A stretch of DNA of 64,000 bases from Heterotrichella gracilis. Its lineage: Eukaryota > Sar > Xanthophyceae > Tribonematales > Xanthonemataceae. Positions 1 to 57,600 of this stretch are shown one piece after another (position 1 is the stretch's first letter; each line of letters starts with the position of its first letter). The notes under the pieces are model-generated. The model did not search any database. It saw only the letters and a program-made list of their open reading frames with translations, and was not told the origin of the DNA. The position numbers and the translations under genes were made by a program. The stretch lies in assembly GCA_032358255.1 (NCBI GenBank), contig JAULBX010018746.1, positions 20,027-84,026 of the forward strand. The letters run 5' to 3'.

Positions 1-683
1 GGCAGCGATGCAGCAGCGTGGTTCGCGTCAACGTATACAAGAACGCGGTCAAAAACGCCGGCAACCTGCCGTCGCTGCCCCGCGAGAAGGCGCTGGTGGC
101 GTCGCTCACCGGGCCTTACTCCATCCTGCGGGCTGTGGGCAAGGAGCGAACCAACGGCAGGCCATGCACCAGCATCACCGATGTGCAGCGGGGCGCGGCG
201 GAGGCGTTTCTGCAGGTGGGGGTTATGGGGTACACATGTCCTGGTTTGGTGGTTTGATGCTCTTCCCATGTGCATGTGACCAAGCTCTAAATCACAACAT
301 CCCCACAGCTGTCCAAATATCACTAGGGTATGAACCAAAACCCTAGTAGCCAAACCCTCATCCTAATTCTCCCCCTTCCAGGTTCTGTCCAGCTACTACC
401 TGGACCTGTTTGGCAACCTGGAGGCGCACACTTGCAGACCCTAAAACCCCTCACTTAAAACCCTAAACACTTTCCCCCCTTCCAGGTTCTGTCCAGCTAC
501 TACATGGACCTGTTTGGCAACCTGGAGGCGCACACCATCACCGACGTGCAGACCTCTGAGCGCGTCAGCCTGCTGCTCAAGGACTCCTTCGTGGAGTCGT
601 TCCCGGTGAAGGACCGGCCCTTTGTCAAGCAGTTTGTGGAGACGCAAATGTTTGAGGAGTACACGGACGCAGTGATCACTTAG
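1..683 (+). CDS. DENN-domain-like protein, 3' end (partial)
   Basis: Two exons of a gene that begins before the window. The first runs from the window edge to 215 (frame codons at 18, 21 and so on) and ends at a CAG|GTGGGG donor. The second is 486-683, after a CTTCCAG acceptor, and ends in TAG. Phase is kept, giving about 135 residues. The last exon carries the pattern DRPFVKQFVETQMFEEY, which resembles the tail of a DENN module (guanine-exchange domain for Rab GTPases), where a run of RPF..F.ETQMF occurs. The family call rests on this short motif, so another protein is possible. The 5' part of the last exon is present twice (382-431 and 486-535), and a decayed copy of its final codons lies after the stop. 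Confidence 0.55.
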
Positions 684-768
684 GCAGGGGCGTGGTTTAG
701 GGTTTAGGGTTTGGGTTAGGGTTGGGGCGCAGATGGGTGGGTAGTATACGGATGCGGTCATCGCCTAG
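370..768 (+). repeat. Exon-edge duplications around telomere-like tract in the DENN-like gene
   Basis: The acceptor plus first 50 exon bases at 474-536 are repeated almost exactly (one difference) at 370-432, with CCCTAAA-like sequence between. The last eight codons (660-683) recur in degenerate form at about 744-768, still open and still ending in TAG, across a TTTAGGG tract at 694-727. Confidence 0.85.
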
Positions 769-1834
769 ATTGCAGCTTGGGAGCAGGTGTGGGGGCTCGG
801 GGGAGAGGGTGGAGGCGCAGGTGTGGGGGGGATGAACAGATGCGAGCGCCACCTAGGCATGCAAGGGTGCGGATGCTACACCTAACCATTTGGCGTGCAC
901 AGTGCACCCATTTTTTGTTTTTACGTTGGCGATCATTGCATGTCACACGCAGCGTATCCTTGTTGCTGAGGCTGGAAGGGATGGGGGGGGTATAACCTTG
1001 GGGGACACTAGTGCGTGCAGAGTAGACCACAGGAACCGGTTAAGACGACAGGAATAGATCACTGTTCATTTGGTTAAGGCAGCAGGGCAATTTACTGCAA
1101 ACTGGGGCAGGTGTGGGTGTGTGGGCGCTGGTGTGTGGGTTTGGGTGGGGGGGGTTGTCTGGGATGCGAAGCTTCGTTGAGAGCGGTGGTCATGACTTGC
1201 TATGCTTCTACGCAGTTGGCTGGCGGTGAAGGTGCAGGCGCTTTTCTTGGTAGGTAGATGGGTTAGTGGGTCGCAACCTAGCAGGACCTTGTTATGTTTT
1301 ATAATCTCAACATTTTGCCGTTAAAGTTATGGCGCACGCCGGTATCGGCTTGTCAATGCTGAATGCAAAATTATTGGAGCCTTCCTTGTAGTTGTAATAC
1401 TTCTTCATCTGATGATTTCATTGGAAAAGCGTCTATATGCTGGCCGGGCAGCATTGCTATACATGGCGCCATCCATGCTGAGCAGCCCAGGGAATTGTGA
1501 CATGATCTGCCCATGCGCTGTACCGCAAATGGTGGTGAGACTCGGAGTCTCGACACCAACACTGTGTTTCGGAATATCTGTTACAGTGAGGATGCAGGTG
1601 CACTGCCAATTTGGAGCCTTTAAGGCTCAGCCCCTAGTTGGGGCGACCTAAGCATGCCAACGAGATTGCATCTGCGTTATTGGTTGCTGTAAATAGTCCA
1701 TTCCCTGCTGACAACAGATCACGATGGTGTGTGCCCCCGGCGAGGGTCCCCTCCAGGGCCCCGCCAAACACCCAGAAAATAAGCAGCCTCTGCAACCGCT
1801 ACCCCAAATCCCCAACCTGAACCCTGAGCTTGCC
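684..1834. other. Intergenic, convergent 3' flanks
   Basis: Between the stop of the DENN-like gene (+) and the stop of the exonuclease gene (-). It should hold both 3' UTRs. Apart from the telomere-like tract at 694-727 and the decayed exon copy at 744-768, I see no coding signal. The short ORFs here lack splice or motif support. Confidence 0.6.
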
Positions 1835-4800
1835 TCAGGGACCGGCTGGCAGTGCATGCTTGACCGCGCAGAAGCACAGCGCCTGCATGGTGCGCTCGCT
1901 GAGCTTTGCCAGGTGCGCCTCCTCCTGCTGGGTCCAGGGGGGAAGGCCATCCAGCCCCGCCTGCCGCCGGATCTTCTGCTCCTGCACACGCACAAAGGGG
2001 CCAGGTTAGGGTTTAGGATTAATGGCAGTGGGTGTGCGTATGTGCGTGGAGGTCTGCTACTCTTAACTAAATTGCTGGACAGCACAGTACCAAGGCCCGC
2101 TAATCTGAGTAGCAAAGCTTGACATGCAACCATCTTGTGCACAGCTGCAGTGAATTCACGGTCAGCGCAGCACCTGCAGTCTGTACCCAAACCACAGTGA
2201 TCAAGATCAGCATTACCACCACACCTGCAGCCCGCGGCACACTCTGGCGTGTCCCCTTCCCCTTGTCTGCAATGTGTCCAAGGTGAAGTCCCTAAGCCCT
2301 AAACCCTAAACAACTGCGCACCTGCAGCCTGCGGCACTCTGGCGAGTCCCCTTCCCCCGTATACAGCACCAGCAGTGCGTTCTGTGGCATGGCATCCCAA
2401 ATGCGCCGCAGCCGCAGGTCCATAGCCTGGAGGAGGAAACCGAACATAGGTAAATCAGAGGAATTCATTGGGTGAAACAGTACAATATCACTTGGATACC
2501 ACAAAATTCAGGTTTTTTGTTATAAGATTCATTGCTTTTAAATATCTGAAAACGCAATTTCTAGATACAGGTGGGTTGTAGAGTGACAAAATTGATGTCC
2601 TCCTGGCAAAAACTACTGAAATACATTAATTGAAATGCTGAATAAATGTGTGCAGTGTCACTGAAAAGGGTGAGCTAGGTACCTGCAGGATGCCCCTCAG
2701 CCGCTCCTCCCCCACGTCGCCCTGCGCTCCAGAGGTGCTGGCCGCACCCTGCCCACCTTCCACCCCGCTGCCCGCTGCAGGGGCATCCCCCCTTGTGCCT
2801 GGTCCATCCCCAGGACCATTGCTAGCCCCATCAGTGGCAACTGGTTCTTGCTGCTGCTCCGCTGGCGTGGGTGCCGATGTTGATGCTGCGCCATTTGTGT
2901 CCATGGCTGGAGGTGAGTCAGTTGCTAGTGTGGGGTCGGGTGGGTGGGGGGCACTGGCTGCTGCAGCAAGCGCGTCCTGCTTTCGCCGAGCAGCCCGTTC
3001 CTGAACAGGGGTGCGGTAAGCATTATGGGATCGAGCGCACGTGGCTGCAGTAGGGTGTAGGGTTTAGGGTTATGGGCAAGTACAGTTGAGCGCATGTGGC
3101 TGCTGAAGGGTTCAGGGTTGAGGGTTGAGGGTGCAGGACATTGGCGAATTGAATGCATGTGGTTGGAACACACAGATGGACAATCTGCGGGCCGCAGGCA
3201 ACACCAGATGCAGGACTTCAAGCACTTCACTTTGGTCACTTTAAACAATGGAATTGCAGCTGCACTGCTCATGGTGAAGGTAACAGTAGACAGTGACAGT
3301 GAGTGGAAGTCGTTCACAGGAAGGGGAGGTTGATTAACTTCTGTGATCTGTGATCACTATCCAGTGGCCCCCTGACTCTGCATTTTGTGCCCTCTACTTT
3401 TTGCTTTCTTACCTGGTGGAAAGCATCCAGGTCCCTGAACTGAGTCCACACCAGGTCCACCCCCGCTGCCGCCACCTCCTTGGCCGCCTTGATGGACGCA
3501 TCCTCGTCGCTGTCTACGATGATGGCGCTGCTGTTGCCCGTCACATGGCGGTGGCACATGTCACTGCGCGCACATGCCACATTTACCATCACACACCTTG
3601 GCGCTCAATTGCAAAGTTACACAGCCACTGCAGGGCTCGCCATGTACCACAACCCCTAGCCCTTAATGAATGCCCTCCAACCCCTCCAATCACCCCAGTC
3701 CATCCCCGACGCCCGGAACCGCCCCATCACATCCAGCAGTAAACCAATCTACACTACCAACGTATAGGACCATTCACACAGACACATGTTTCCAATTCCA
3801 GGGACCAGCGTGAACCCTAACCCTACACCAAAAAAAACATTTCTCTCCCCCACTCACCCCCGGTCCACCACCGCCGCCCGCCTCCGGAACCTCCCCAGCA
3901 CATCCAGCAGCCGCTCCCCCCCTGCCTCCTGTGTGGTAATCCCATAGGAGGGACCGTTTTTCACCTTGAGCAGCACCAGGTCCATGGCAGCACGCGCATC
4001 GTCGATCGAGTCGTGGGACCCCGACTGGATCTTGCGCCGCAGGAACTTGTCGGACAGGATGCGCAGCGCGGACTTGTAGGGCGGGCCCTGCGCCGTGGTT
4101 TAGGGTTTAAGGTTTTAAGGTGGGGTTTGCGCGATGGGGTGCAACATGTACTGGTGCTGGTGCTGGTTATGATACTGTGCTGATATTGATGATGTTTACC
4201 CTATACATGTACACCAGAGAGGTTGCACTTGCACAACACCCCACCCGCCCACGCACGTACTCTAGGGTGCGGGTACTGCAGCGCGGTGTCGATGCAGTTT
4301 GCGTGCACCACCCTCATGGCCTGCAGGTCGTTGTCCAGCGAGTGCCCCACAAGCAGCGTCTCGCAGTCCACCACCGCCCTGAACTGCTGCTGCACATCCT
4401 CCAGGCGGGTGGTCACTCCGGCCAGCATGGCGGGGGTGATGCCAGAGTAGCGCGTGTTGTAGTCCAGGATGGGGTTGTGGGGGAGCACCAGCTGGTCTAG
4501 AAGGACCTGCGGTTGGGGGTTTGAAGGTGGAGATGTGGTACGCAAGGATGTTTTGCTAGGGGCACACAAGGGCACTGTGTGTGTGGGGGGGGGGGGAGTT
4601 GAAAAGCAGGGGGGCGCAGAAATGCAGCATGGCGGTGGTGATGCCCGAGAGCGCATGTTGTAATCCAGGATGGGGTTGTGGGGCTGGACGAGCTGGTCTA
4701 AAAGGACCTGTGTGTGCGGGGTAAGAGGTAAAGGGTAGAGGTGGTGGCTGTGGCTGTAAATGCTGTTAAGGCGTGCAGGGCTGGTTCGATGTCAGAATGC

Positions 4801-7563
4801 ACCGTGCTTCAGGCCATCATGCATGCCACCCCCACTCGCACCACTTGCCCTTGTCCCTTCTGCAGATAACTATTAACTGGAATGCATGTCCTTAGGTAAT
4901 CTCATTCCCAGGTACACACAACCTACGAAGGAGCAGCTGCATTTTACTTTCTTGCATAAACCTTGCCCTCCTCATCCACTAGCAGCACAAGCCTCGCCTG
5001 TGTGGAACACCACCTTACTTACCATAGTCGATGCCTGTACCATTCCCTACCCACGTGCCCAGGACATGGCCCCTTTCCACCCTTCGCCTACTTTTCCACT
5101 TCATCCAGACTTGTGCTTTAGGGTTTAGGGTCCCTCGCCACCCACCTTTCCCTCCTCATCCACCAGGCTCACACGCGTCAGCTCCAGCCCCGCCTGAGTG
5201 GAGCACATCTCACAGTCCATGGCCACCATGCGGTGCCGGGGGGGCGGCGCCTCGCCATCCTCACACTTGTCAGGAAGAGGTTGGCCTGTGATGTGTTTGT
5301 TAACTAAGTAAATAACCAATAAGAATTTTTTTTACTAATAATTTTAACAAAAAATTACAAATTTACTATTTATTGTAAGTAGTAGCACCGTTGTTTTCAT
5401 TCAGTATGTTGCTTAAATTTCCGCAGACAGCCACAGCTGGGGTACGGGTATGCATGCATGTGATGAGGCGGGGGCAGAACAAGGTGTGTCCTGAATTTGG
5501 TCACGGGTGTGCATGCACCACGAGAAGAAACGACAGAGAAGCTGCATGCGTGGGACCTTACTTGATGGCGGGGCTGTGACAAAGCCTTCAGGGCACAGTA
5601 TCTGCCCGCTGGCATCCATGGTGGGCACCGGGTAGTTGTTGGCCTGCATCTCATCCAGGCTGATGGTGTAGTAGGAGGGCGGGAAGGGGAAGTTGTCACC
5701 CCCCTTGACCGCCGCGCCGTTGGCCGCGCCGTTGCCTTCGTCCCGCTTGCGCTTCTTGCCCTTGGAGGGCACGGTGAAGAGCGCGCTCACAGTCTGGCCT
5801 ATAGGGTTTTTCCACAGGATGCCATCAGTATGGTGCACAGCAGGAGTGCCATCAGGGGGGTTGTGTGGATTGGAAAGTACTTATTTTTTAAGAAATTTTC
5901 ATTTTCAATTTCATCAAGATGGTGCAAATTATGCAGTGTGCATGGCATCCAGCACAGGGATGGCATGCCAGTGTCACGGCATGGGGCACGAGCAACAAAT
6001 GGTATGACCAAAACTTAATTTAAAAAAGTTAGTGGCCATGATCAACGCGTTTGGCCCCGCATGTGAAAGCCTGGCTTATACGCCAGACTGCATTGGTGGA
6101 GAGTAGTTAGACCAACCATCAGCAAGATGACTAGTTAAGAGCATGCAACCAGCATCTCAAGAGCAGACACCCACCCTCTCCACCCGCTTTACTAGGGTGC
6201 ACCACAATTAACACAGTATTCCCTAATAACCCCAAAATCCCAAACCTAATCAGCCTTACTTGGGTACACCACTGCGTTCTTGGCGAGGACCCGGATGGGC
6301 CAGATGAGGTGGGGTGTCATGGCAGGGAAGCAGTCCTGCAAGATCGGAACCAATATTGAGTCGCCAACTCAAGAACAGAACAACATGAAGGAGTGGTGTC
6401 AACACTGAAAGTGCGAGCTCGGAACCATTGGTGGGTTGTCAATGCAAGATATAACAACATGAACAAGTGATGAGCAGCGTGCACATCCAAGGTCGCCATA
6501 CCTTGTATTCCAACCCTAAACCCTAAACCCCTAAACCCTAACCTTGCCTTGTACTCCTCGAAGAGCTGTGCGTCCATGCCATGCAGCATGACCATCACCA
6601 CCGTTTTGATCAGCGGCTTGTTCTGCGAGGGCAGTGAACAAGAAACTTAGTTCCACACACCCCAGCAATACACCCAGAGAAGCAGGCCACCAGTGCCCGA
6701 TGCTACAAGTCGTGCAGCGTTTGCTTATTCCGTGACTTAGCATGATGTGCGCTCAAGTCAAAAGTGTGAGTGCAGTCAACAAACGTCCTGTATTATTGCA
6801 GCAGTCGATAATACAGGGCATTGGCTGTCTACACACCATCCAGTGACATTCCGCACCTTGACAAACATCCAGCGGGGGTTGATGCCATCTGCGAGCACCC
6901 ACAGCAGCAGGCCTTGTATGTCAAACACCTTGATAGGGCCCTGGGTCTGCGCCTGGACCTCTGCCTTGTCCTGTAAAGTCCAACATGGTGGGTGGGTGCT
7001 AGAGCATATAGAGAGGCAGACATTGTGTGGTACAAGTGATAGTGCGCCATTGATTATGCCCTTGTGTAGCTCAGGGTACTTCCTAACGCGCAACCCGCGG
7101 TTCGCAGAGTCTGGCAAAACAGCCGTACCATAACTATATGCATGCATTGCGCAAGTTTTTGCATGCAACGATATGCATGCATCCCGTGGTGGCCGCCACC
7201 CACCTGGCCATACACATCGAAGTACCCAGCAGCCGCTTTCCTCTCAAGCTCCAACAACCGAGCCTTCTTCTTCCCTTTCTTTGAAAGCTTGGCAGGCGCA
7301 GACTGCGCCGCTGGGGCCACTCGGCTGTGGCTTGCTGCTGGTTGTGGAGTGAGGTGCATACTGTTCGCTGCAAAAGTAGGCCGTTTGAACTCGGTTGCTG
7401 GCATCTTTATCTCACCATCTTCCAGATCCTCGTCAGGAGGCAAGGTCGAAACCGTTGCTGGCGTTGCCACTGATTGACTCCTGGTGTCATTGACACTGTC
7501 CTGAATGTTTGTCAGTACCCCTTGCAAGCTTGTAGCGTGCCCCCGGCCACCTTGTCTACCCAT
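1835..7563 (-). CDS. REXO5/SDN5-type DEDDh RNA exonuclease
   Basis: Likely 3'-5' exoribonuclease of the plant SMALL RNA DEGRADING NUCLEASE 5 / animal REXO5 group, probably nuclear. Twelve exons in transcript order: 7563-7204, 6970-6857, 6622-6548, 6335-6260, 5798-5562, 5285-5146, 4506-4261, 4087-3858, 3563-3413, 3000-2683, 2426-2322, 1981-1835. All phases agree, giving 732 residues. The DEDDh set is complete: MDCEM with D311 and E313, GHSLDND with D394, and HDSIDDA with H441 and D446. Upstream, a block with [17 protein letters not shown] and [11 protein letters not shown] matches the conserved N-terminal region of this subgroup. A basic KGKKRKR stretch could be a nuclear signal. Intron 3 appears to be GC-AG (AAG|GCAAGG, at 6548/6547). 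Residues about 545-650 are Ala/Pro/Gly-rich and look disordered. RRM domains found in some relatives are not evident. Introns carry four decayed copies of exon edges. Confidence 0.9.
2212..2375. repeat. Duplicated donor edge of exonuclease exon 11
   Basis: The donor end of exon 11 (about 2317-2375) recurs with a few differences at about 2212-2270, and the two copies are separated by CCCTAAACCCTAAA at 2290-2311. The copy lies inside the following intron. Confidence 0.8.
3705..3925. repeat. Decayed copy of exonuclease exon 8 donor edge
   Basis: About 40 bases at 3708-3750 resemble the donor end of exon 8 at 3872-3920 (shared CGCCCGGAACC and CACATCCAGCAG blocks). A short AACCCTAACCCTA stretch at about 3811-3825 lies between them. 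Confidence 0.6.
4425..4715. repeat. Duplicated acceptor edge of exonuclease exon 7
   Basis: The first part of exon 7 with its acceptor (about 4430-4512) is repeated with scattered changes at about 4632-4712, including the GGATGGGGTTGTGG and AAGGACCTG blocks. The far copy sits in the upstream intron as a possible pseudo-exon. Confidence 0.8.
4960..5220. repeat. Decayed copy of exonuclease exon 6 donor edge
   Basis: Sequence at about 4962-5012 resembles exon 6 at 5146-5212 (shared CCCTCCTCATCCAC and CCTG.GTGGA.CAC blocks). A TTTAGGGTTTAGGG tract at 5116-5132 separates the two. Confidence 0.65.
6513..6541. repeat. Telomere-like tract at a splice donor
   Basis: Four CCCTAAA-type units on the + strand. 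On the minus-strand transcript they begin five bases after the likely GC donor of exonuclease intron 3, and would supply an alternative GT (GTTAGGG) that breaks the reading frame. Confidence 0.8.
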
Positions 7564-8034
7564 GGTACCTGACTTTAACAGGAGCCCATTAGTTACTGCT
7601 TATATTGTTTGCCTGCGGCGTCTTGTGAGACTATGTATCACTGGTACTCGCTAGGTTTGGGTTATAAGGAAATTGCGCGGGAAACACTGCCCCCAGGCCA
7701 CAACTTTGAAATGCACACATACACTGAGGAGCTGAGTCACACGCTGCATGCTGTGAAACGTTGATTTGTCTGTGGGGTTACAGCTGAACTTGGCAGCTAT
7801 CGCTTCCATTTCCCTTCACATCTCCACAGTACCCGAGGCCTAGACTGAGACACCTGTTGGCAACAAGGGTGCCCCTGGCAGCTGCAGTTTGCCATTCTTC
7901 TGCATCGTGCCACAGATGGTGAACTATTTTGCCTTCGCATATGTACGATGAAGCAACGAGGTGCGGGGCTGACAATGGATATGCATGCATCTACTCCCTT
8001 ATGCATGCATGCAGTTTTGCTGCATGTAACCGCG
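7564..8034. promoter_or_regulatory. Divergent promoter region, exonuclease / GT32-FkbM
   Basis: 471 bp between two divergent start codons, so both promoters and 5' UTRs should lie here. ATGCATGCAT-type palindromes occur at about 7980-8013. In-frame ATGs at 7948 and 7984 mean the plus-strand gene could start earlier. No TATA box stands out. Confidence 0.5.
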
Positions 8035-11000
8035 ATGAGTATGCCCCCACACCTCACAAGAGTGGATCTCGATACAATAGTGGACATAGAGCCAACCCTG
8101 GGTTTCAGGCGTGGGTTCCAAGTTGGCCTCACCGCAAGCTTGTTACACTTGTGTGCAGGCACGAAGGTGATTGCTGCCAGGAGTGCGCTTTCCCTCCCGT
8201 CCCTAAAGTTCTCTTTTGTCACGAGCTTTTCGATCCTGCTGAATATCCTCCTATGCTACAAAGCCTTCCTCCCCTGTGACCTGCCGCACCCAGGTAAGAC
8301 AAGCGACTCACATGCACCTGGCGCATAGCCAGATACAAGCCAGTATGCTGTCAACAGTGGGCTTGAACCTGCCAAGCATCTACGCATGGCCAGGTACAGT
8401 GAGTGGCTGCCGACCATGTGCTTACTACCTGTGCAGTGGTCCAGCTCTCCAGGAGGGATGGACACTTCCAAGGCGCATCCGCAACACAGGTGGGTGGCAC
8501 CCCCGGGTGTTGAGCTTGCATACCTGCAATGCAATGGCCTACGAATCCAGCTTGGTTGACGATAACCAATGCAGTGATCTACGCATCCAGCTTGGTTGAT
8601 GACAACTTGTGCATGTGGCAGGTGCAGGATGCCAGCCCGCCACCCGCACCACAGGAGGTCAATACTCTCAGCGAGCACTGGCAGATACCGCACCAAATCC
8701 ATTTGCTGGGCGACGCGGAGCACCTCTCAGACGCCGCAAAGCCATTCTCTGACTCCTGGACGTATGTCAACCCAGGTGTGGTTCTATGCATAACCCTAAA
8801 CCCTAAACCATATGGATGGAAGTCGACCCAGGTGTGGTGCTATGCATGTCATCACTCCCATTTTTCAAGTGCTTGTAACTGCTTTGCAATATGATACCTC
8901 CCATATGTTGCCCCACCGATCAGGGCAAGATTGCAAGGGTGTTACAATTGCCCTTAACCTGGCAATTTCTCATGGAGGGAAGCCATCTGGTTGATGCATT
9001 CATGGTCACTGACAATGGTATATGTGCCACCAGGGTGGGAAGTCAAGTTCTGGACGGAAGAGGCCCGAGGGGAGTTCATAGCTACTCACTTCTCAGCATA
9101 CCAGAAGGCGTACAGGCGGCTCAAAATGGGCACAGACAGAGACCGATTATTCGCGTGAGTGCCTGAGAATTCTTGTGGAATTACATCCTGCATATCTTCT
9201 ATCATGTCCTACAGTGCGTGTTCATAATGTGAATGCGGGCATGCAACATGCAGGTACCTGCTTATGTACCAACAAGGAGGGGTGTATGCTGATCCGGATG
9301 TAGAGTGCCTGTGCCCGATGTCTCAGTTTCTCAGGGCCAAAGATGCATTGGTGGTGGTCTGGGAGGGCAACTACGTAACCTCGGAGCTGGCACGAGAAAA
9401 CGGCTTTGCAAGGTAGGCCCAAAAGTCATGTTTTAGCGATGCCATTGCTATACTGCACTGTTAACCCAGGTCATTGATTGGGAATATTCTGGCTGTACTC
9501 AAATGTATGTAATTAATTAGGTGTAGCGCTCAAAGCTCACAATTTGGTGCATTTAAAGAAAATGCACATATGTGGGTCACAGGCAAAGGCAAATGGCACC
9601 TTGGTTCATAGCTGCAGCCCCTGGGCACCCGGTTTTCAAAGATTTGGCGGAGCTAATAGTGAAGCAGGTGGATGTCGTTTTCTACAATGACCCCATCCGA
9701 GACCACCATGAACGCACAGGCGCTGGGGTCTTCACTGAGGCTGTCTTGAGGCATGCTGCCTTAAGTCAAAAGGTGAGGCCCTTGCACAAAGGCATGCCTC
9801 ATATGTTAGCTAAACATCATAACCAGCAGATATTGTTGCACCAAACTTTGCATGATGCGAGCTGGCAAGGACCTGAATTTGGCAATCCATCATTGTTTGC
9901 CTGTGGTTGGTTGGCTGACAGGACTTACTGGTTGTGGTATACAGGTGGAGGGCATGCGCCTGCTGCCGACAGGTGTGACAGGGAAGCCCGGCAGTCAGAT
10001 GTTGATCCTGCCGAGCATTTGCGTGATGAAGCACCTTTGGCCGTCTTCGCGAGAGGATAGCGGCGCTGCCCTTGCGGGGTAAGGCATTGCTGCATTATGT
10101 TGCTCTAGTTGTTGCTTGCAAATGGTCTGCACTTTCTGCACCATGTCGACTTTTTTACTGGCAAATGACTAGGAAGGTTTCACTCCATTGAAAACATGAA
10201 TTTCGCAACCGCAGGACACCAAAGTACTCCTCCACCTACATGGTCCCTCAACCACAGCAGCTCTTTCCTGTGACCACCACCTCCAATCCCCCTTTCACCA
10301 TGTTCGTCCATGCACCTGGGGCTGGGGACCCAATTATGGGTAGTGACGTCAGCAGCCTCATTAGCGAGTATGGCATCTGGCAGCCAACGGATGCGATTTC
10401 ACATCCACCGCACATAATCGATCGCCTGCTTGATGGTCTCAGGGAGTCCCAGGGAGCACTGCTGGACATGGGGGCCACCTATGGCATGTTCTCTCTAGCT
10501 GCAGCTGCACAGGGGTACAAGGCAATGGCCTTTGAGGTGTCACCAAAGTGCACTGAGGCCCTCAAGGCCAGCATCCAGTTCAACGGGTTTGAGTCATTGG
10601 TACAGCTGAAGGAGAACGTGTTTGGGGATAACGAGTTTTCCATTTGCTACTTGCCCAATAAACACAGCAAAGATGAGGGGGTCTACCATGGCTATGGGGA
10701 CCGTATTGGCACAGAGGTGAGAATTTTGTAGAGTGAAGTTACATCATGCCCTAGGGATCAATTGCCGCCGCATTGTCCATGAATCCCACAGCTGCAACAC
10801 ACTTGCCACTTTGCACATGTCGGTTTCCCAGATGGTGTTGAAATGGCAAGGTGGAATCTACCTCTGGGCTCCAACCCATTCTTCTCTGTTTCAGGAAACC
10901 GAGACTCGACAAGCAAACTGCAGCGGCTTCACTGTGCGGCAGCGTGCCTCTGTTGTACTGGCTGCTTATGAGGGCAAAATCGGTGCTGTGAGGATGAGCG

Positions 11001-11799: not shown

Positions 11800-11947
11800 C
11801 TTGCAGCGGGCTTCCAACAAATCTTCACAGCATGCAGACAGCCTAGGACTGTAACAGCCTTTGCAGAACACTAAGAATTACTGCAATCACTGGAGGAGGA
11901 AGTGGCATGGTGGGCAAGCAGCCGACTCCGTAGTTAAATTGAGTACG

Positions 11948-19531: not shown

Positions 19532-23484
<3,953 letters not shown>

Positions 23485-23539
23485 CGCTGCGCCGTCACCT
23501 AGTGACGCGTATCCCAGCCTTTTACAGAACTTTGCAGCT

Positions 23540-26403: not shown

Positions 26404-31626
<5,223 letters not shown>

Positions 31627-39000: not shown

Positions 39001-40709
39001 GCTTGGTAGGGGAGGGGGGCAAGCCATGTTGCCCGATGTACCTGTTTGCTAGAAAAAAACCAATAACAACCAGTATGCTACAGTGTTAAGGGTTTAGTGT
39101 TGGGTGCTTCACCCCCTCATCTCAACAAGAAGTCCGAACTTCTTGTTTAAACCATCGACTCTCAATGCCCCATGCCATACATATTCCGCCGCGCATTGAA
39201 GGCAACCACATTAGGGTTTAGGGTCTCCAAGCCTAAACCCTACACCATAAACACCCTTAACCCTGAAACCTACACCCCATGCGCACCTCGGATTTCATGG
39301 TAGCCAGCACCTTCACAGCCGCCTCCCACTGCCCCATTTTGCCATACACATCCACCAGGGTGTTGAAAGTGACCACATTGGGGCTGCACCCCTGCTTGCG
39401 CATGGCCTGGTAGGTCTCCAGCGCCAGCGCGCACCTCCCGCACTTGATGCACACGTTCATGAGCGCAGTGTATGTGTGCACGTTCATGTCCACCCTCCGG
39501 GCCTGCATCTCGGCTGCCAGCTCGGTGGCGCGCGCCATGCTGTGCTGGGCGATGCACATGGAGATGGTGGCGGTGTAGGTGTAGACGTCGCACAGAGAAC
39601 TGCGGTAGGCAATAAATGAGAGTTGAGTTAGATATTTAGTGTCATAGTACATACCCTTGGAAGGAAATAGGGCAAGTATTTTATTCAGTTTGAAATCCGC
39701 ATTCATATAATCAGCATCTATATGTTGATAAAAACCATACTTGTATATAGAACACGCTCCTTATCTCGAGTTTGACGGCGTTGATTGAGTGAGAGGCAGA
39801 GTGAGAGAGCCAGCCTGGGAGGATGGTCATACCCTACCCTACCTGAGGGGGTCATCCTGGGGTAGTTTGCGCAGCCTGTCAAAGAGCTCGTTGGCCCGGG
39901 GGACAAGGCTTGCCTTGCTCAGCTCTTTCAGGAGGAGGGCGGTGGCTCGGCTGTCAAAATCGGCCAGTGCCCTGAACACCTGCGTGGATGGGGGTTTAGG
40001 GTTTAGGGTTATGGAGTTTAGGATTTGGAACCATTGCGCACACACCTGATGCACTGAAGGACATTTTAGGGTTAAAAACGTTGCGCACCAGTATGGAACA
40101 ATACAGGGTTGCAACATTTGAAGGGTTTAGGGTTTTGAAGGGGTTTTGAACCGCTGCACACACCTGGTCGGGCAGAGGCTGGGCCCTGGGCAGGGATGCC
40201 ACCAGCCGAACAATCTCCTGTGCTGAAAGGCTGTCTTCTGCCGCCTGGAGCCTGCCATCGCCCGCCTCCTTGCCGCCCCCTCCCCGCCCCTTTTTGCCCC
40301 CCTTGTGGAAGCCGTGCACCCCCCCCCCCCCGCCCCTGCCCCCGCCTCGCTGTGCAGGCGGGGCCTTGCCCTGGCTCCGCCCGAACCAGGGTACCCTAAA
40401 GTTGCTGCTCTCTGGTATGGCCTGCCCCCCCCACCCCACCTGTGTCTGTACATGTGGTGGGTGGGCGCTGGTTCGATCCCGTGCATTTGGTCCCGCTGCC
40501 GATACGCTGTCGTATGCCTGTGGTGCCATCCCCGTCGTGCTCGCCAAGACTGCTATGGGCGTGGGGGCGGTGGTGGCGGTGTACCAGTCCGGGTGCTGCT
40601 GCTTGTGGGTAGGCGGGTGCTGGTGCTGCTGGTCATATATGAAGAGGCTGTCTATTTCGCTGGGGATCCGGGTGGCAGGGTCTGGTCCCATGCGGACGAG
40701 TGTGTCCAT
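33004..40709 (-). CDS. PPR-SMR-cyclin fusion protein
   Basis: Predicted organellar RNA-binding protein. Fourteen exons: 40709-40164, 39979-39843, 39599-39287, 38864-38670, 38435-38261, 37543-37291, 36907-36747, 36097-35977, 35651-35516, 35338-35115, 34779-34590, 34134-33997, 33745-33578, 33213-33004. Every junction keeps phase, giving 988 residues. Layout: a disordered N-terminus with a Gly/Arg/Lys-rich stretch; about nine P-type PPR motifs of 35 residues, such as the one starting VVTYTALISALEKGGQW; an SMR-like domain with LLIVTDKGKGSREQG and WGAPFR; then a cyclin-like fold, with AVLLMDRTMSTSLQVQDQL and, later, MEWNMRQVLGNDTAAIST. PPR-SMR proteins act in plastid RNA handling; the cyclin-like part may be a protein-binding scaffold (inference). 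The true start is uncertain: the first exon stays open to an AG at 40804, and more 5' exons may lie at 40850-41180. No transit peptide is shown. Confidence 0.82.
34005..34285. repeat. Decayed copy of a cyclin-domain exon donor region
   Basis: CCATGTACAGCTTGGCGCAG at 34038-34057 within the exon recurs at about 34228-34247, with a TTAGGGTTTATTTGGGG stretch next to the copy. Confidence 0.75.
34405..34705. repeat. Duplicated donor edge of a cyclin-domain exon
   Basis: The exon end at 34589-34705 and a decayed copy at 34407-34515 share ACCTGGAAGCCCGT, CACCACCACCGC and CCCATCAGCTGGTC in the same order. AACCCTAAACCC-type sequence flanks the copy and lies between the two (about 34365-34375 and 34540-34552). 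Confidence 0.85.
34712..34975. repeat. Duplicated acceptor edge of a cyclin-domain exon
   Basis: GTGCGGTCCATGAGCAGCAC at 34726-34745 recurs as GTGCGGTTCATGAGGAGCAC at about 34907-34926, followed in both by a TCATGGC and CTCATC/CTCCTC block and CCC.GCCTG-type sequence. Confidence 0.75.
36270..36412. repeat. 37-bp minisatellite in PPR-SMR-cyclin intron
   Basis: Units at 36331-36367 and 36368-36404 (CTTGTACCAACTAGACGCTA then ATTACTAAACCAATCAG) differ by about two bases. Shorter degenerate units precede them from about 36272. Confidence 0.85.
36545..36812. repeat. Near-identical copy of PPR-SMR-cyclin exon 7 donor edge
   Basis: About 75 bases with GCGGCGCACCTGGCCCCTGG, the C-rich stretch and CTCCATGATCCAGGTGTACA occur at about 36557-36627 and 36739-36810, offset by about 182. 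The second is the functional exon end; the first could offer another donor. Confidence 0.9.
37126..37350. repeat. Copy of PPR exon 6 donor edge
   Basis: GCCCACCTGA then CTGCAG.GC.TTTC, CTGCGCCCAGATGACCC and CGTGCTCCACAGCGCATCC occur at about 37126-37188 and 37283-37349. The second is the functional exon end. Confidence 0.85.
37446..37945. repeat. Triplicated PPR exon acceptor edge
   Basis: The start of exon 6 (about 37446-37556) is repeated at about 37640-37745 and 37832-37940, a period near 191 bp. Each copy retains the acceptor and CTCAAACACCTCGCTGGCCT, and each is followed by TTTAGGG-type sequence. Copies two and three encode most of one PPR unit but have no evident matching donor. The third is more diverged. 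Confidence 0.92.
38100..38345. repeat. Copy of PPR exon 5 donor edge
   Basis: TGTGTTTGGCTTGCACCCCT at about 38163 recurs at about 38299 in the exon, flanked in both by GGCGCACCTTG upstream and CACATCTCCT/TACATCTCCT downstream. TCTAGGGTTTACAGCTTAGGGTTT-like sequence lies between. Confidence 0.85.
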
Positions 40710-42466
40710 TGCTGCACTGCGGGCGCTGTCTATTTGAACGGACACGTCGATCCCAAGTGCCTGGTGGCTATTAATATTGTCCCTCCAGAGCTTGCAGCAT
40801 TGCCTGAGTTAATGTCATTTACCTGTACAGAGAGGCACACATTGGTTAAGTGTAGCGCGGTGGGGTAGAGTGACAACACGCACACGAAACAACGGCATGC
40901 CACACCGGCTGAATAACCACCACCCACCTGCATATCCTCGCTGAACAGCGCTGCAGATAAAACCCTGTCAAGCGCTAAGCAATTCCTTCGCAATGCACGT
41001 TTTGCTGGTCCAGAGGGTATTCTTTGGAGACCTGGAAAAGCGTTTGCTTGCCTTGCTTTTGTTCAAGCACAAAGCGAGTGCATTGTCTGAGTCTCAGATG
41101 CGCTGCAGCACGCCGCAGGGCCACAAAAGTCTGCGGCCCAAACGACAGATTTGGAGGGCGCTGCTGATGTGGCACTGAACAATTATGTAAAGCGGGCACT
41201 GGAGACAGTTCAGATTCGGCGTATGAGATCAGATTTGCCCAGTCATCAATTCACGTGGGCCCCCATAGCCACAAGTCAGCCACAAGCACTTGTTCACTTT
41301 CGCCCCCAACAACGTTTCTCTCTCGTTTTAAAGCATCCTTTTCCCATCAAAGGGGCACCAAAGCTAGGGGGCTTCCTGGCTAAACAGGAGTAAAGTAAGG
41401 TGGGCACCAAAGCAGCGCACTGCATACTGGATGTCATTTGGTGCAATAGCAATCCACAGGCATTCCATTAGCCATCACCGTCCCAGGCAGCCATCTGCCA
41501 GTGTGCACGGGCAGTTACAACACGCAACAAGCAACCTGGCTAGGCCCAGCGGCAGTGTACATGAGGTTACAACCAAGGCACCTTTCATCTTGTATGTGTA
41601 TACAGCTGCTTGCCCGTGAGAGCACTAATTGGTAAGTAAAAGCAAACTTTGGCATGATATTGAGCCCGGGTTGGCTCCCTCATGAATGTCTCAGATTTCA
41701 ACCCCAACCACAGTCCAGCAACCTGAAACCCAGCGGTGTGCATCCGGCTGATAACAGTGAAAGCCGCGACCCTAGCACAGGGCGCATGGACAAAAACGCG
41801 AGTGTTGCAGGTGTGAAGTACAGCGCATCTCAGCCCACCTTACCCAGTTAAAATTGCTGGTGATTGAAGTGAAATACATTATAGCATCGCTATCTGCACA
41901 CAGCCCAGGGTGTGTGCAGACGGGTGGATGCGCACGAAAAGAACACAAAAAAAGCCCACACCAGCCCTGCAGGCTAGAATGGAAACAGATTCAAGCCATG
42001 GAAAATTGGTTTCTTACCCCCAAAAATTAACACTGTGATGCGATATGCCCAGGCGCCTTTCACCCACCCATACCACAATCCCATGGCCTACGCCTTTGCT
42101 GACCCACATACATCCCCCGCCACCCCCGTGCCGCCTTGCTGCCAGCCACCCAACTCCCAGCCCAGTCCTTGCTACACCGGCTTGTGTGGATACCGCTGCT
42201 GCTACTGCTGCACTTGTTGGCCTGCAGCAGGAATCCCTCCCGCTGGCAAACGCCACCCCCTCCCCCTCCACCATCGTTTCCAACACCCACCTCAGGCACC
42301 CGGTCCAGCAAATCCTACGCGGTGTTGACCATATATCAACAAAAAAAACTCTCTGCTGCTGCTGCTGCTGACTTGCTGGCCCAGCATCTCCTGTTGCAGG
42401 TGTCCACACCACACCCATCTCAGGCCCCATGTCCAGCATAACCCTAACCCTCCACCCTGTTTAGGG
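40710..42466. other. 5' flank of PPR-SMR-cyclin gene and 3' flank of CCS1
   Basis: No complete gene seen. Minus-strand open stretches at about 40853-40993 (ends AG|GTGGGT) and about 41033-41190 could be 5' exons of the PPR-SMR-cyclin gene. The part near 42300-42440 holds decayed copies of the CCS1 last exon and a short CTG run at about 42351-42370. Confidence 0.4.
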
Positions 42467-42540
42467 TTAGGGTTTAGGGTCGACCACCTCCACCTCCACC
42501 ACCATGTCGGGCACCACCTCAGGCACCTGGTCCAGTATGC
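42300..42540. repeat. Copies of CCS1 last-exon sequence around a telomere-like tract
   Basis: Blocks CACCTCAGGCACC.GGTCCAG at 42289-42310 and CATCTCAGGCCCCATGTCCAG at 42416-42436 resemble CACCTCAGGCACCTGGTCCAG in the last exon at about 42514-42534. A TTTAGGGTTAGGGTTTAGGG tract at 42460-42480 lies between. Confidence 0.65.
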
Positions 42541-45500
42541 GCGATAGGTCCTGCTCGAAGAGCGTAGGTGCGCGGTTGGTGTTGGCGGCCACGCACAGGG
42601 TGGTGCCGTTCTGCAGCGCCCACACTTGCGAGTGCGACCCGTAGCTCATCAGCGTGGCAAGCAGCATGCCTGCGGGGTGGGGGTTCAGGGTTTAGGGTCC
42701 GTGGATTAGGGTTTAGGGTTTATGGCTAACATTCAGGAACACGTGAGCCGTAGCTCATCAACCTGTGGGTTGGAGATGCAGGGTTTAGGGTTTGTGGGTA
42801 GGGTTGACAAAATGTGAGTCATGGCTCGTCAGTATGCCTGTGTGGTGGCGGTGGTGGGGGTACCATCAAGAAACAGCCACCACATCCGCACGAGTACAAT
42901 GCTCCAGGGTACCGTGCACACATAACCCCCCTCCCTCCCCCATCCATGACTGTCTTTTAACTCATTGATCAACTGTATTGCATATTTTACATTAATTCCT
43001 CACCTGCAAATCCCAGGTAGACAATTGGCACCCCCGGGTCCGCCTTGAGCTCCATGCCTGAGCTGGCTATGATGCCCTTGATCACGATATCCATGCCCTC
43101 AACTGTGATGGGCTTGTTGGAGTCCACGCGCCGCACACCTGATGCATTTGCGAGACATTATTTTTAAATGATGCAAATGAGGAACGGGGTACCCAGAACT
43201 GCCAAAATGTGGGAAGGTCAAGGGCAAGAGCAGAGCAGGAAGGAGGGAAATTCAAGGATGCAAAGCAGCAGAGTCAATGGCTCAAATGTGGAGCTTTGAG
43301 CCAGACAATCGCGTAACCCCAGGAGACAAGGGAAGGCAGTTTAGGGTTTAGAGTTCAGGGTGTTGCCAGGGCCACCCACCCTGCAACCTCTTGTTGTGGC
43401 ACAGCATGGTGATTCAGGGCTTTGGGGTTTCATGTCTCAGGTTTTTGGCAGCGCCATCCACCTGCAACATCTCCCTTGCTGTCGTACAACGTGATAATTC
43501 AGGGTTGATTGGTTAGAATATAGGGTTTTGGCAGCGCCGCCCACCTGCAAACTCCCCCTTGCTGTCGTAGAGGGTGACTGTCTTGAGGTCCTGCGCAAGC
43601 ACCGTCACCCCCAGCGGCTTGCCTGTGGAGGGGTCATCAGTGCCTGTGGGGATGAAGGTGGCCCACACGCGCTTCCCTGTGCCACGGAGGGGGTTCTGTC
43701 GGAAAATACTGTATGATGGGCGCTGTTGGTTGTTGAATTTATTTATTGTAAATAATATTTTGCATTGCATGTTGCTTATTTATTGCATACATGCCAGGCA
43801 CGCTATTCCTGCCACTACCTCACCCAAGTTGGGAAAGCAGTAACCAGCTTGAGGAGCCCTTATGATGCTGCACCATTACAAAGCTTGTTCTACTTGAAAC
43901 AAAAAAAAGGAGCAATCTAACCAACTACTACATCAACTTGATAACCCGCTCACCAAAGGACTTCTCCATGGAGGCCATGGGGATGGCCACAGCACCCCCG
44001 TCCTCCGCCTGCACAGGCGAATTTGTGACCTGCAGCGCCAGACCCGCCATGGACCAGTCGGTCTGGTACATGGTCACGCCACCAAACCGCAGCGGGTCAT
44101 TCACCGAAATGGTTTTGCGGTACAGGTCCTCCCCCTCGTAGTTGCGCACTGACAGGTCAGTCTTGAACTGCTCCACGCTGCCGTCGGATCGGTAGTCGAT
44201 GTCGAAGCTGTTGATGTGCATGATGGCGCCCGCGCCTGCAGCATAGAATGCGTTACATAAAATGTAAGATTACTTCAGGAATTTTCATAATTTTTCTGGT
44301 TTTTTTCCGGATTAAGTATGATTTAAGAACAAAATATAATTTAAAAAGACTAGTGGTGTAAAAGAACAAAGGAACAGCTAACAACAACTGATTTTTACTG
44401 CAATCGTCAAACTCCATGCATCATGCCTCACAGCGGATAGCACGGCCTTAAGGTTTAGGGTATTGATGCATGGCTCACCAGAGGGGGGGGTGGCCATGCT
44501 GCTGGCAGGCAACAGGTACTGCGCCACAAGGAAGTCGCCTCCCTCGGGGATCATTGCTGCTCCCCGGAAGCCGCCCACCGCCCCCACGCCCACCCCCAGC
44601 ATGACCAGTATCATGCTCACGTGCACGCCGATGGGCCCGATCTTGCCGGCCATGCCCTTAAACCCATACAGCTTCCCCTCCTGCAGTGGTTCACTCAGTC
44701 AGCTCAACCCCAGACTGTGCATGCAAGCAGATACATGTTGATAAGTGGCCTTTAGCGATGGCATTTAGCCATGGAATTTACTCTTGCAGCAACCCAAGTG
44801 CATGCATCTGCCAGTTACACAGAAAGACAGCCCAGCAAAACCGCCAAAGGTCAACAAAGCAAAACTTGTGTGGGGCGCTACGCATTTCCTTCCCTTTGTC
44901 CTCCTGCACCTTACAGATTTATGAGTCTTAGGGTTTGCGTCTAGGGTTTACGGTCTCCGTACCTTGCAGAACACCTCGAACCCGTCCTTCGTCAGCAGCC
45001 TCCCAAAGTCCCCCATGCGCGCGTTTGGCAGCTCCTCGTGGATCTGGAACTTTGCAAAGCTGCTGGGGCTCTTCTGGAACTGCCAGCGCTGCGCCACCCG
45101 CAGGGCGGGCCACTGGCGGGTGGTGGAGCAGGCGATGAGCGACAGACCCAGCAGGCCCAGCAGGCCCAGGAAGTAGTTTGCGCTGTAGATGTGGTCCCAT
45201 TGGAAGGCCTTTATCAACCTGCGCAGCCGAGTGTGGGTTTGAATGTCATTGCACTTGCAAGCATGGCGACGCCATGGCATTACAATGCCATTACAACGCC
45301 GATGTACTTTCATGCATGGGGTCACCCCGTGCTCTCTGCTCAATGCAGTGGCCACCTATCATAATACTAGAGGTAGCTGCATGGACAAACACAGAGCCCT
45401 GTACAAATGCAGTCACTGAGAAAAAAAAGGCTTACGTGTAGTCCACAAAGCCCAGAACCCTGGTGGGCCCATCCGGGTAGAACTGCATGTAGTACTCCAG

Positions 45501-46179: not shown

Positions 46180-46680
46180 GGTGCCGAGACCGCCAAGGAC
46201 ACAATAGAGAGCTGTTTAGGCAAGAGTTTCATGCTACCATCTAAAAACTAGGCAGTAGTGACCACCCCAATGTTGCTGGGTTATCAAGTTGCTGTCGTGG
46301 TATATACTGGGTGGTTAGAGCACGAGCCGCAGGTGAAGGTGCCTCTTCTCGCAGCCCACCAACGGTTTTGGTTTCCGTTTTCCTGCTGTTATCCAGGAGA
46401 CGATGCTGTAGTACTAAGTAGCCACCCAGCTTGGCTAGTCGAGTCCTCCGTGGTGGTGTTGGCGCCACCAACTCCCCCGTACACCTTTTGTTGAGTGTCC
46501 TCCAACCTTTATGCATGGCAACTCGTGTTTTGCCAGCCGTTACATAAGCCTTGTCAACCTGGGAGAACGAACAACAAACGATATTTACATCGTATCTGAT
46601 CCTATGGTTGCTCAGCAGGTGTAACCCAGCCAACAGGTTTCCCTCCCTGAAGCAGGATGGGCCTCTTCCCGTAGCATAGC
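46180..46680. promoter_or_regulatory. Divergent promoter region, CCS1 / SAC3A-like
   Basis: 501 bp between divergent start codons. A long minus-strand open frame crosses it (46241-46807) but overlaps the SAC3A-like first exon and has no motif, so I treat it as chance. Confidence 0.5.
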
Positions 46681-54593: not shown

Positions 54594-54655
54594 TCACACC
54601 CGCTCCTGCCCCGTGAACCGCTGGTTGAGCTGGTTCTCCGAGGGGTACAGCGACA
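54405..54655. repeat. Three copies of antiporter last-exon 3' end
   Basis: CACACCCGCTCCTGCCCC occurs in the exon end at about 54594 and CACCCGCTCCTGCCCC recurs at about 54408 and 54490. The middle copy continues with CGCTGGTTGAGCTGGTTC as in the exon; the outermost is more decayed. Both extra copies are downstream of the stop. Confidence 0.88.
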
Positions 54656-57600
54656 CGTGCGCCGGCCGCGTGTCCTTGCCGCGGTGGTCCAGGCCCGCGT
54701 CCAAGTGTCCGCGCAGGGGCACCTCCTCGTCGTCATCCCCATACAGCGGCTCCTCCCCCTGGATGCTGTCCTTGCGCTTGCCCTTGAGCCACTGCAGCGC
54801 GCGGGGGATGGAGCAATGGGTAATTTGATTGCTTTGCTGGTGCGTTTCAGCTATTCAACCAGGTGAGCTTTAGTTGGTGGAATAGATAGCGACAGTGATT
54901 GCGGTTGAGAGGTAAACATAGCCACATGGGATTGCACAAGTCACCATCCACACAAACAACAACCCTCCCTTTATCAGCCATGCCCCTCCACTTCCTGCCC
55001 AGCCCCACGGAAACCCGAAAGCAACCGGTTTTTGAACAGAAAATAACTGGACTGAAATTTCAGATTTTATTTTATGTAGTTTCGTAATCCAGGGTTTCAA
55101 ATGACAGTCATGTGCCCTGTGCTCACAAGGCAATAAAACAAAACACAGCAAATACAAGGAATTCACTTTTATTATTGAGCATAATTATCATTTACTTATT
55201 TATTTATTTTCAATTTTAAAATGGTTCCACATAGCGCACCTCCCGGCCCTCCGGCATCTCCCCGTCCGGCCCGATGGGCTGGAAGGGCAGCAGGAAGCGC
55301 GCGCTGAACTGCAGCAGAAAAGGCGTGAGCAGCAGCGACAGCGCCGTCACCCCCATCAGCAGCATGTAGATCTGGTGGGGCATGAGGCCGAAATGCGTGG
55401 CCACTGATAGGAGGACAAAGGCGAACTCGCCTATCTGCGCCATGCTGAGGCCCACCGCCATGGCGGTCTTCCAGGGGTAGCGGAACACCCACACCACCAG
55501 GCTGATCTGCATGGGAGAGAGGACGGTTTCAGGGCATTGAAGGGGAGGGCTTAGGGTCCAAGCTTGTTCAAAGGGTACCCCCCTCGCACAGCTGTTGCTC
55601 AGAAGCTACCCTGCTCATACCCGCCTCCCCTACCCTACCACCCACACATGCACTCACCAGCAGAACACATGAGCAGGTATCTCTGCAGAACATGCACACA
55701 CCAGTGCCCTGTACCAGCACGACACAGGAGAAGGTGTACCAGCCCCGCCGCGGTCCCGACAGTGACTTCAGGCAAGCCATGCTGGCTTCGGACCATGGCC
55801 ACCCAGAACCACCTTTACAACAGCGCTTCACGGGTGAACACCGGCCTCAAAGGGCATGGTTTTCATGCTCTGTTGCGGCGCAATTGGAAAGGCGTGCCAG
55901 GTTGCCACAGGCCGGTGCCAACATGGACCAGTGATGTCAGCATGGGGACCCCGGCAGAACAGTCACATGGGTCTTTGCCAGCACAGGCCAACCCCAACTT
56001 CCCATCATGTACCAGCACCACCTTTGCCAGCACAGCCTGCATGAGCCCCCAACCTCCCATCATGTACCAGCACCATCTTTGCCAGCACAGTCCATGCACC
56101 CCTCCTTCCCACCAATTGTGCCAGCACCATCTTTGCCAGCACAGCCTGCATGAACCGTCGACCTCCCATTCTCCACCACCATTGCATCTACCACCATTCA
56201 CAAGCCTCCCTCCGCACCAGCGCCGCCTTCACCAGTATGGGCCCCACCGCCCTTCCCCCACACGCCACCACCACCAGCAGCAGCCCCATCAACACCATTA
56301 TCACACCACCACCAACACCACGGACCCTAACACTCACCTCCCTTCTCCCACACCCCACCGCCTCATCACCACCCCCGCGCACCAGCACAGTCTTGGCCCA
56401 GAATGACCACCAGCAGACGCAATACCACCACCACCACCACCATCACTACCACCTCCACACCACCACTATCCCATCACCACACCACTACCTCCACGTACCA
56501 GCACAGTCTTTGCCAGTATGACCACCAGCACGCCCAGCATGAGCACGGGCAGGTGCTGCGCCAGGAACACCGGCGACATGATGAGCCCCGTGCTGCTGAT
56601 GAACAGCGAGATGAAGAAGGACTTGATGCTCTCAAGGCGGTGCAGCGCAAGCTCCTGCTGGTCGGTCACAGACATCATCACACCAGCCACAAAGGCGCCC
56701 AGCTCCGTGGATAATTGCTGCGGGGGAGGGGGCGGGGTGAGGGGTATGGTGCAGAGGCAAGGAATTTAGGGGTTGGGGTTTAGGGTTTACAGGTGCAGGG
56801 CAAACTCCTGCTGGTCGGTGACTGACATCATCACCCCGGCCACAAAGGTGTGGGGGGGAGAGCAGTGTCATGGGGCTGCACCTCAAGGCTGGTGTACTGG
56901 TAGCAGTACAGACTCCGCATGAACACCGTAAACTAGTACAACATTCACGAGTACTGTGTCACAGGGCTTGTGTGCGTCAAGGGCTCTCACCAAGTGCCCC
57001 GATATCCATGCGCCGCACAGGCAGAACGCCACGACCACGATAGTGTACATCTCCTCGCTGGCAGCCCTTGCCAGCAGCCGCATGGCACCCGGCAGCATCG
57101 TGCGCGCAACCAGGGCAGCCACCACCAGGGAGATCCCGAGCGACGCGGAAACCCTGCGCAAGGGTATCAGAGGTGAGGCCGAGACCCTACGAAAGTGTGC
57201 CAGGGACAGCGCGGCAAGGATACATGTGCTAGGGTACAGCAGCAGTGGGGCGGGGTCAGTATTTTTCTTATGTTTCCTTTTTGGGTTTCCTTTGTATATT
57301 AGTGTAGAAACGCGCGTTGCGGGTGCGAGGCCAGCGGCATCAGAAATAGGCAAGGGCCCAACAACACATCCGGTACCACGGTTTCTCAGAGTGTAGGTTC
57401 TTAGGGTTCCAGGCCCACCTGAACACGATCGCCGCCACCTCCGTTTGCGACACCTCTGTCTCCGAGGTACTCCCCAGGATGGGCATGAAGGCAAACAGGA
57501 GGCCAACCATGCAGTCCTGCAGCATACCAGGTAGCTGTGTTACATGCAAGAGGATGACGAGGACAAGACTTAGGAAAAAGGTGGTATATGCAACATAATA

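Follow-up and report, generated by a model that had tools for sequence, protein, structure and literature searches.

Direct duplications of exon edges around telomere-repeat filler in introns of the alga Heterotrichella gracilis

Introduction

Short inserts of telomere repeat left by break repair are known from rodents, primates and the horse, where orthologous sites are empty and the insert sometimes lies within a target duplication of the staggered-break type. In the accessible parts of these reports, target duplication accompanied 4.6% of telomeric insertions in rodents and 16% in primates (PMC2246262), and 4.5% in the horse, plus 3% in complex changes (PMC7215372). Here we describe a related arrangement in a 64,000-nt stretch of the xanthophyte alga Heterotrichella gracilis (contig JAULBX010018746.1; G000:C188:20027-84026), which lies within a 68.5-Mb assembly of 903 contigs and is called the window below. 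In its predicted introns, tracts of TTTAGGG/CCCTAAA often lie between direct copies of an exon edge. Compared with the mammalian insertions, direct copies are frequent here, flanking 39 of the 93 intron tracts in a 288-kb sample (background 10%), and they commonly include exon edges.

Three further systems share part of this arrangement. Fill-in of staggered ends yields tandem duplications; in cells of human and mouse the CST-Pol alpha-primase axis produces them at 3' overhangs, and the same source refers to such duplications in plants, where they arise from adjacent nicks, and in rice (PMC8355091). Such duplications are repeat-independent and tens of nucleotides long, as here, but the part of that paper available to us describes no telomeric filler at them. 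Recent intron gains in Daphnia have short flanking repeats and likewise tie intron change to break repair; unlike those gains, as far as the available account of them goes, the events described here mostly lengthen existing introns, with long repeats and telomeric filler (PMC3488318). Plant telo boxes are also short telomere motifs within genes. They were proposed to arise where telomerase adds repeats non-processively to free 3' ends, and they concentrate in 5' regions; in rice they are densest in 5' untranslated regions, with introns below expectation, and in Arabidopsis the first two introns carry more than later ones. Unlike the exon-edge events, they are presented in the available portion of that study without mention of flanking duplication (PMC3022908).

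The arrangement had been proposed from the letters of the window alone (the original prediction), with the remark that no named system describes it. This was nearly right, the mammalian telomeric insertions and the staggered-break fill-in duplications being close relatives. The open-licence literature gave us no description of telomeric inserts between exon-edge duplications, which does not imply absence from print. We regard the arrangement as a variant of known processes that is new in its frequency, its length and its position at exon edges, without being a wholly new process.

Results

Counts refer, where not stated otherwise, to the 288-kb sample, which combines the window with 20 tiles (10 kb each) of contig C2 and with 24 kb from contigs C13, C46 and C57. 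Two contigs dominate this sample, which limits every genome-wide statement. Genes were predicted without transcripts by a predictor self-trained on the sample (505 training introns; donor consensus CAG/GTGAG, acceptor TGCAG/G; median intron 270 nt).

TTTAGGG, the Arabidopsis-type repeat, is the telomere repeat of this species. Genome-wide, the telomeric 14-mer occurs 2845+2784 times (reversed control: 2+3) and the 21-mer 406+428 times (control: 0). With a count of 96 in the sample, TTTAGGG headed the 602 period-7 unit classes, the runner-up having 28. Seven contigs (C70, C140, C526, C609, C712, C717 and C770) open with (TTTAGGG)6 on the minus strand, the orientation of true telomeres; (TTTAGGG)6 on the plus strand is also present in other contigs, e.g. 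C173, C460 and C607 (presence only). The window holds 29 perfect tracts, defined as at least 11 nt long, where base counts predict ~0.2. The inserts between the copies are built from this repeat; many are nonetheless impure or unrecognisable.

Of 96 perfect tracts in the sample, 93 lay in predicted introns, three were intergenic and none was exonic, yet exons make up 85.3 of the 288 kb. The intron tracts crowd near splice sites. Introns in which no copy was detected show the same: 42 tracts fell within 100 nt of the donor end (27.5 kb), 31 within 100 nt of the acceptor end (27.5 kb) and 18 between (35.7 kb).

A scan for local direct duplications, made without reference to tracts and leaving out low-complexity duplications and those with at least 30% telomeric bases, yielded 94 cases, some of which belong to one array. 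In 66, including members of the same array, one copy touched an exon; 24 were confined to intron or intergenic DNA and four were exon-exon. Random placement gave a mean of 42.7 exon-touching cases (range 28-55). Among the 66 exon-touching duplications, 32 had at least eight telomeric bases in the spacer; within 60 nt outside the copies, this number was reached in nine on the left and seven on the right. Under stricter exon-edge assignment, telomeric spacers were commoner in exon-edge (28/47) than in intron-only duplications (5/24).

The association was also found starting from the tracts. Direct copies flanked 39/93 intron tracts and 41/404 tract-free positions at matched distance from a splice site, a comparison from which overlapping loci were absent. 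By source, the flanked fraction was 13/26 in the window (random 13/256) and 22/56 in C2 (random 47/855). A second test, on 102 merged tracts with overlapping loci kept (L003/L024, L004/L026, L005/L006), gave direct flanking repeats at score 16 for 44/102 tracts and inverted ones for 0/102; random positions gave 5.3% and swapped flanks 0.6% direct repeats. Direct tandem copies of tens of nucleotides, with no inverted ones, are the form expected of staggered-break duplication.

The original prediction had proposed aligning introns to their flanking exons. We did this for 345 introns (70-1200 nt, flanking exons at least 40 nt) and found a decayed copy of the intron's own exon edge in 46 of them at a score of at least 16, compared with 0 and 0 in reverse-complement and swapped-exon controls. 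At score 13, a copy was found in 68 introns and 1+2 and 1+3 times in the controls. The 51 exon-edge events matched the upstream exon in 28 cases and the downstream exon in 23. Tracts, counted here from 9 nt upwards, numbered 24 in the 4642 bp that separate exon and copy, 23 in the 13867 bp past the copy (Poisson P=2×10−6 versus between) and 91 in 90679 bp of event-free introns (Poisson P=2×10−10 versus between; ~5 times lower density). Spacer density also exceeded that near the edges of event-free introns (P=4×10−8). Telomeric enrichment between the copies was thus found as predicted, and we conclude that the duplication feature is real, that it is common across the sample and that it is probably widespread.

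The prediction that such events are tolerated through a kept splice site and lengthen introns was supported. Where the alignment reached within 6 nt of the exon edge (34 of the 51 events), the intron copy retained the splice dinucleotide (GT/GC or AG) in 23. The median intron length was 390 nt over the 51 events and 265 nt in introns without an event, a difference for part of which the copy itself accounts. Copy offsets were spread evenly modulo 3 (24, 19 and 23), making the copies unlike used exons, and we rejected the idea that the decoy copies serve as exons. The spacing of the copies in exon-edge duplications looks bimodal, at ~45-125 and 165-225 nt with few values between, possibly reflecting one and two rounds.

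Within the window we found 29 duplications before clustering, compared with none in three block-shuffled versions. Clustering left 28, of which 20 have a copy touching a predicted exon (some from one array), in keeping with the 'at least twenty' places originally claimed; telomeric 8-mer sequence separates the copies in 9 of these 20. The original wording 'in many cases' was apt, since not every duplication holds a tract. All eight originally named coordinate sets were located, seven clearly and one (42645/42748) weakly. The main features are as follows.

371..535, plus strand: acceptor-side event in the dDENN-domain gene; copies 371-431 and 475-535 are 98% identical, with a degenerate CCCTAAA spacer (tract 458-468), and copy 475-535 continues into the remainder of the exon
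2222..2357, minus strand: donor-side event; tract 2297-2311 (TTTAGGG in sense) lies between the intact exon end 2319-2357 and decoy 2222-2262, which retains its GT
4960..5206, minus strand: older donor-side event, with tract 5117-5131 between exon 5144-5206 and decoy 4960-5010; its intron holds a second, acceptor-side copy (4423-4509/4625-4710) without telomeric insert
8757..8847, plus strand: donor-side event; 35-nt copies 8757-8791 and 8813-8847 flank AACCCTAAACCCTAAACC (8792-8809); modelled exon 8622-8775
21179..21301, minus strand: donor-side event in the M24-peptidase gene; tract 21241-21259 separates exon end 21260-21301 from decoy 21179-21221, whose donor has mutated to TT
34302..34700, minus strand: exon-edge copies 34404-34514 and 34587-34700, plus a shorter related copy 34302-34338; CCCTAAA tracts 34365-34378 and 34537-34549
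37440..37942, minus strand: acceptor-side array of three copies (37440/37633/37810) in PPR gene A; 193-bp period, tracts 37604-37616 and 37797-37809
38119..38353, minus strand: donor-side event in PPR gene A; tract 38236-38246 lies between exon 38254-38353 and decoy 38119-38218
39211..39242, no strand assigned: head-to-head tract TTAGGGTTTAGGGT-CTCCAAG-CCTAAACCCTA in a predicted intron of PPR gene A
42255..42535, minus strand: copies 42255-42308 and 42483-42535, tract 42467-42480
42636..42830, minus strand: weak short copies (score 17) around CCGTAGCTCATCA; tracts 42687-42722 and 42780-42793
56639..56848, minus strand: acceptor-side event in the Na_H_Exchanger-family (Pfam) gene; tract 56776-56789 (sense CCCTAAA) lies between the intact exon copy 56639-56695 and decoy 56792-56848

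At 371..535 the predictor used part of both copies; in our own reading the first copy is removed by splicing. Predicted genes of the window include those for PPR, M24-peptidase, Na/H-exchanger-family and dDENN proteins. The M24 assignment comes from a Peptidase_M24 domain match, and we take this gene to be a methionine aminopeptidase. An exon piece compared with solved structures gave no match. Non-telomeric repeats also occur: positions 16803-16949, within a predicted intron, have at least 39 genome places at 77-91% identity and represent a dispersed repeat. Further short, many-copy dispersed repeats lie at 39737-39859, 51030-51093 and 56406-56539, the last two of which match several common places, often on opposite strands.

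The order of events was judged from the 15 events whose insert is clearly telomere-like. In 12 of them the 60 nt lying beyond the copy scored 8 or less, and in the other three 9, 9 and 12; 9.8% of event-free intron segments score at least 9. If the tract had existed before and been duplicated with the exon edge, it would be expected beyond the copy also. Since it is mostly absent there, most of these events fit an arrival of tract and duplication together, while a few may differ.

PPR gene A (window 36.7-40.8 kb) has two paralogues, gene B on contig C900 (L030/L031/L034) and gene C on contig C898 (L032/L033); the longer exons match at 73-85% DNA identity. Gene B carries two 41-nt copies of an exon start, identical at 41/41 positions, around TTAGGGTTTAGGG, with a spacer that begins ATTAGGGTTTAGGGTATCC. 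At this site gene A has a single copy and an intron without a tract, and gene C has no intron. The donor-side copy and telomeric spacer at 38119..38353 are present in gene A, and genes B and C each have a single copy; gene C has a tract directly at the corresponding donor, where no copy was detected. The acceptor array of three copies in gene A is matched by a single copy in gene B. At the same acceptor, gene C has its own short copy bearing a C-specific base, and we therefore read this copy as independent of the array in A. The trio thus provides empty sites without the insert, few in number and between paralogues rather than orthologues. The original description of long, target-duplication-like copies around a telomeric insert was supported. 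Recent tandem gene copies (L012, L013/L014) had three indels of at least 12 nt without a 9-nt tract and were uninformative. A search of window positions 8001-24000 and 42001-58000 for paralogues gave short repeated matches and, among the matches listed, no further gene family.

Protein alignment of the three PPR genes gave two intron positions common to all in the aligned part. Gene A has three private introns (a fourth is probably a prediction error), gene B four and gene C one or two, and some of these sit just 5-20 codons apart between paralogues. Judged from the alignment, gains would be the simpler account of these differences, and loss is possible for whichever gene is the outgroup. The trio points to rapid intron turnover, which may be fast enough to be caught in the act. 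Several private introns contain no tract, so the trio is no demonstration that telomeric filler creates introns. Copies running from junction to junction bounded 10/489 introns at a score of at least 10, compared with 1.5 in the control, and none were in excess at scores 7-8. One case is clear: the 97-nt intron at L036 3276-3372 resembles a recent product of tandem duplication. With an excess as weak as this, wholesale intron gain by AGGT duplication was rejected.

The repeat also resembles splicing signals. Upstream of acceptors, the branch-point-like motif CTRAC is most frequent at 20-29 nt, with 34 occurrences in this 10-nt bin, 13 in the next and 2-7 in the others; CCCTAA and CCTAAC are ~5-fold enriched at the same distance and among the most enriched words there. 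On the sense strand, tracts within 60 nt of an acceptor read CCCTAAA in 22 cases and TTTAGGG in nine, and those within 60 nt of a donor in 21 and 23, respectively. The spacers of exon-edge events gave 10 and 0 on the acceptor side and six and eight on the donor side. CCCTAAA filler may provide a branch point and pyrimidines. TTTAGGG filler would introduce an unwanted AG, which fits the orientation bias near acceptors, selection being suggested by the counts.

Discussion

We consider it probable that these scars are tandem duplications formed during staggered-break repair, with telomeric filler at the junction, and tolerated at exon edges. From the layout we infer the following course. A break would leave single-stranded ends of ~30-100 nt, and fill-in on both sides would turn the overhang into two tandem copies. 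The ends would then be joined with a short filler, often telomere repeat, giving the order exon edge, filler, exon edge. An overhang spanning an exon edge would duplicate the splice site too. The copy attached to the intact exon would be used in splicing, and the other copy would be removed with the filler; the gene would survive while its intron grows by ~50-200 nt. Insertions inside an exon would mostly disrupt the reading frame, whereas those spanning an edge would bring a second splice site. Repeated rounds would produce arrays.

Several results weigh against this reading. The excess of flanked tracts was unseen in the small samples outside the two main contigs, the counts being 1/6 in C13, C46 and C57 (random 3/108) and 1/5 in C3 (random 4/22); telomeric spacers were present there in 4/5 exon-edge duplications, all on C46. 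The strict ratio of exon-edge to intron-only duplications, 47:24 (random ratio 0.8; 28:5 with telomeric 8-mers), may partly be detection bias, because exon copies are conserved. No more than 15 of the 51 exon-edge events have a telomere-like insert at P≤0.02, a threshold that 9.3% of 237 background segments also pass (50 shuffles per background segment, 100 per event), and several duplications have inserts of just 0-10 nt. Simple decay would predict a tract share that falls with age, yet exon-edge duplications showed no such fall (6/13, 9/15, 12/16 and 1/3, from most to least identical). In some events the predictor assigned part of both copies to the exon. Besides the three flanks scoring 9-12 beyond the copy, some arrays carry outer-side tracts. 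The phases of tract ends had no clear bias (21, 19, 18, 14, 13, 11 and 8 of 104), although decay blurs phase, and a tract lay within 3 nt of the copy on the telomerase-priming side in 13/39 cases and on the other side in 14/39, where decay likewise blurs the gaps. Finally, the 98%-identical copies at 371..535 are already separated by imperfect units, so this filler is no clean telomerase product.

The original prediction had combined staggered-break fill-in with telomerase capture. It was largely right in outline. The layout of the duplications is consistent with the first part; telomerase as the agent was not borne out by any signature of phase, gap or two-ended order. Two-ended healing, with TTTAGGG followed by CCCTAAA, was rejected: tracts of at least 8 nt showed this order twice and the opposite order five times, with 9-nt tracts each order was seen once, and with 10-nt tracts the counts were one and none. 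A telomerase RNA-binding domain is encoded at C626. A search for CTC1 gave no match, but control queries were likewise unmatched, which makes the search uninformative. The filler could derive from telomerase addition or from captured telomere-derived or degenerate subtelomeric fragments, and capture fits as well.

It is unlikely that the tract came first, that is, that interstitial tracts near splice sites stall replication and the adjacent exon edge is then duplicated. Such an order would explain the crowding of tracts towards splice sites in introns that lack detectable copies, and interstitial telomere sequence is unstable in yeast, according to the accessible part of one report (PMC11626172). 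The three higher-scoring flanks and the outer-side telomere-like sequence of some events, e.g. L015 and L026, could be of this kind. However, tracts would then be expected outside the copies, where they were far rarer than in the spacers; 12 of the 15 flanks scored low, and the PPR paralogue edges are without both tract and copy.

Somewhat less likely still are two unrelated features, namely ordinary tandem duplications, made by slippage or by repair of the plant type, and telomeric microsatellites that persist near splice sites because CCCTAAA acts as branch point and pyrimidine tract. The four-fold excess of flanked tracts that remained after the matched-distance control, and a spacer density above that of event-free intron edges, argue against this separation. 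The motif peak upstream of acceptors and the strand bias found there and not at donors are what it would predict, and duplications without inserts do occur. A family of introner-like or other mobile elements carrying the repeat is very improbable and was rejected: introners have turned up mainly in lineages that evolve fast, green algae among them (PMC9860276), but all-against-all comparison of 531 introns with telomere units masked (those below 50 nt left uncompared) gave no common sequence (23 similar pairs, 39/531 introns, several being local gene duplicates), and the copies are tens of nucleotides long compared with 3-9 bp target duplications in some introner families, as described in the available part of that source.

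Staggered-break repair with telomeric filler may have wider consequences. If the sampled rate of 46/345 held across the 68.5 Mb, an extrapolation from a sample of mostly two contigs, the genome would contain on the order of ten thousand scars. Such numbers would let intron lengthening and movement, and the rate of telomere capture in break repair, be tested. It is conceivable, though we doubt it, that this repair is a main engine of intron growth and turnover in the alga, with the repeat as a portable splicing signal: CCCTAAA, which resembles the local branch point CTRAC and adds pyrimidines, would let the spliceosome recognise the downstream copy and neutralise gene-breaking events at once. 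The scars could be used to test whether a simple repeat serves as a ready-made splice signal, and they form a visible, recurring record of a mutational process that reshapes introns.

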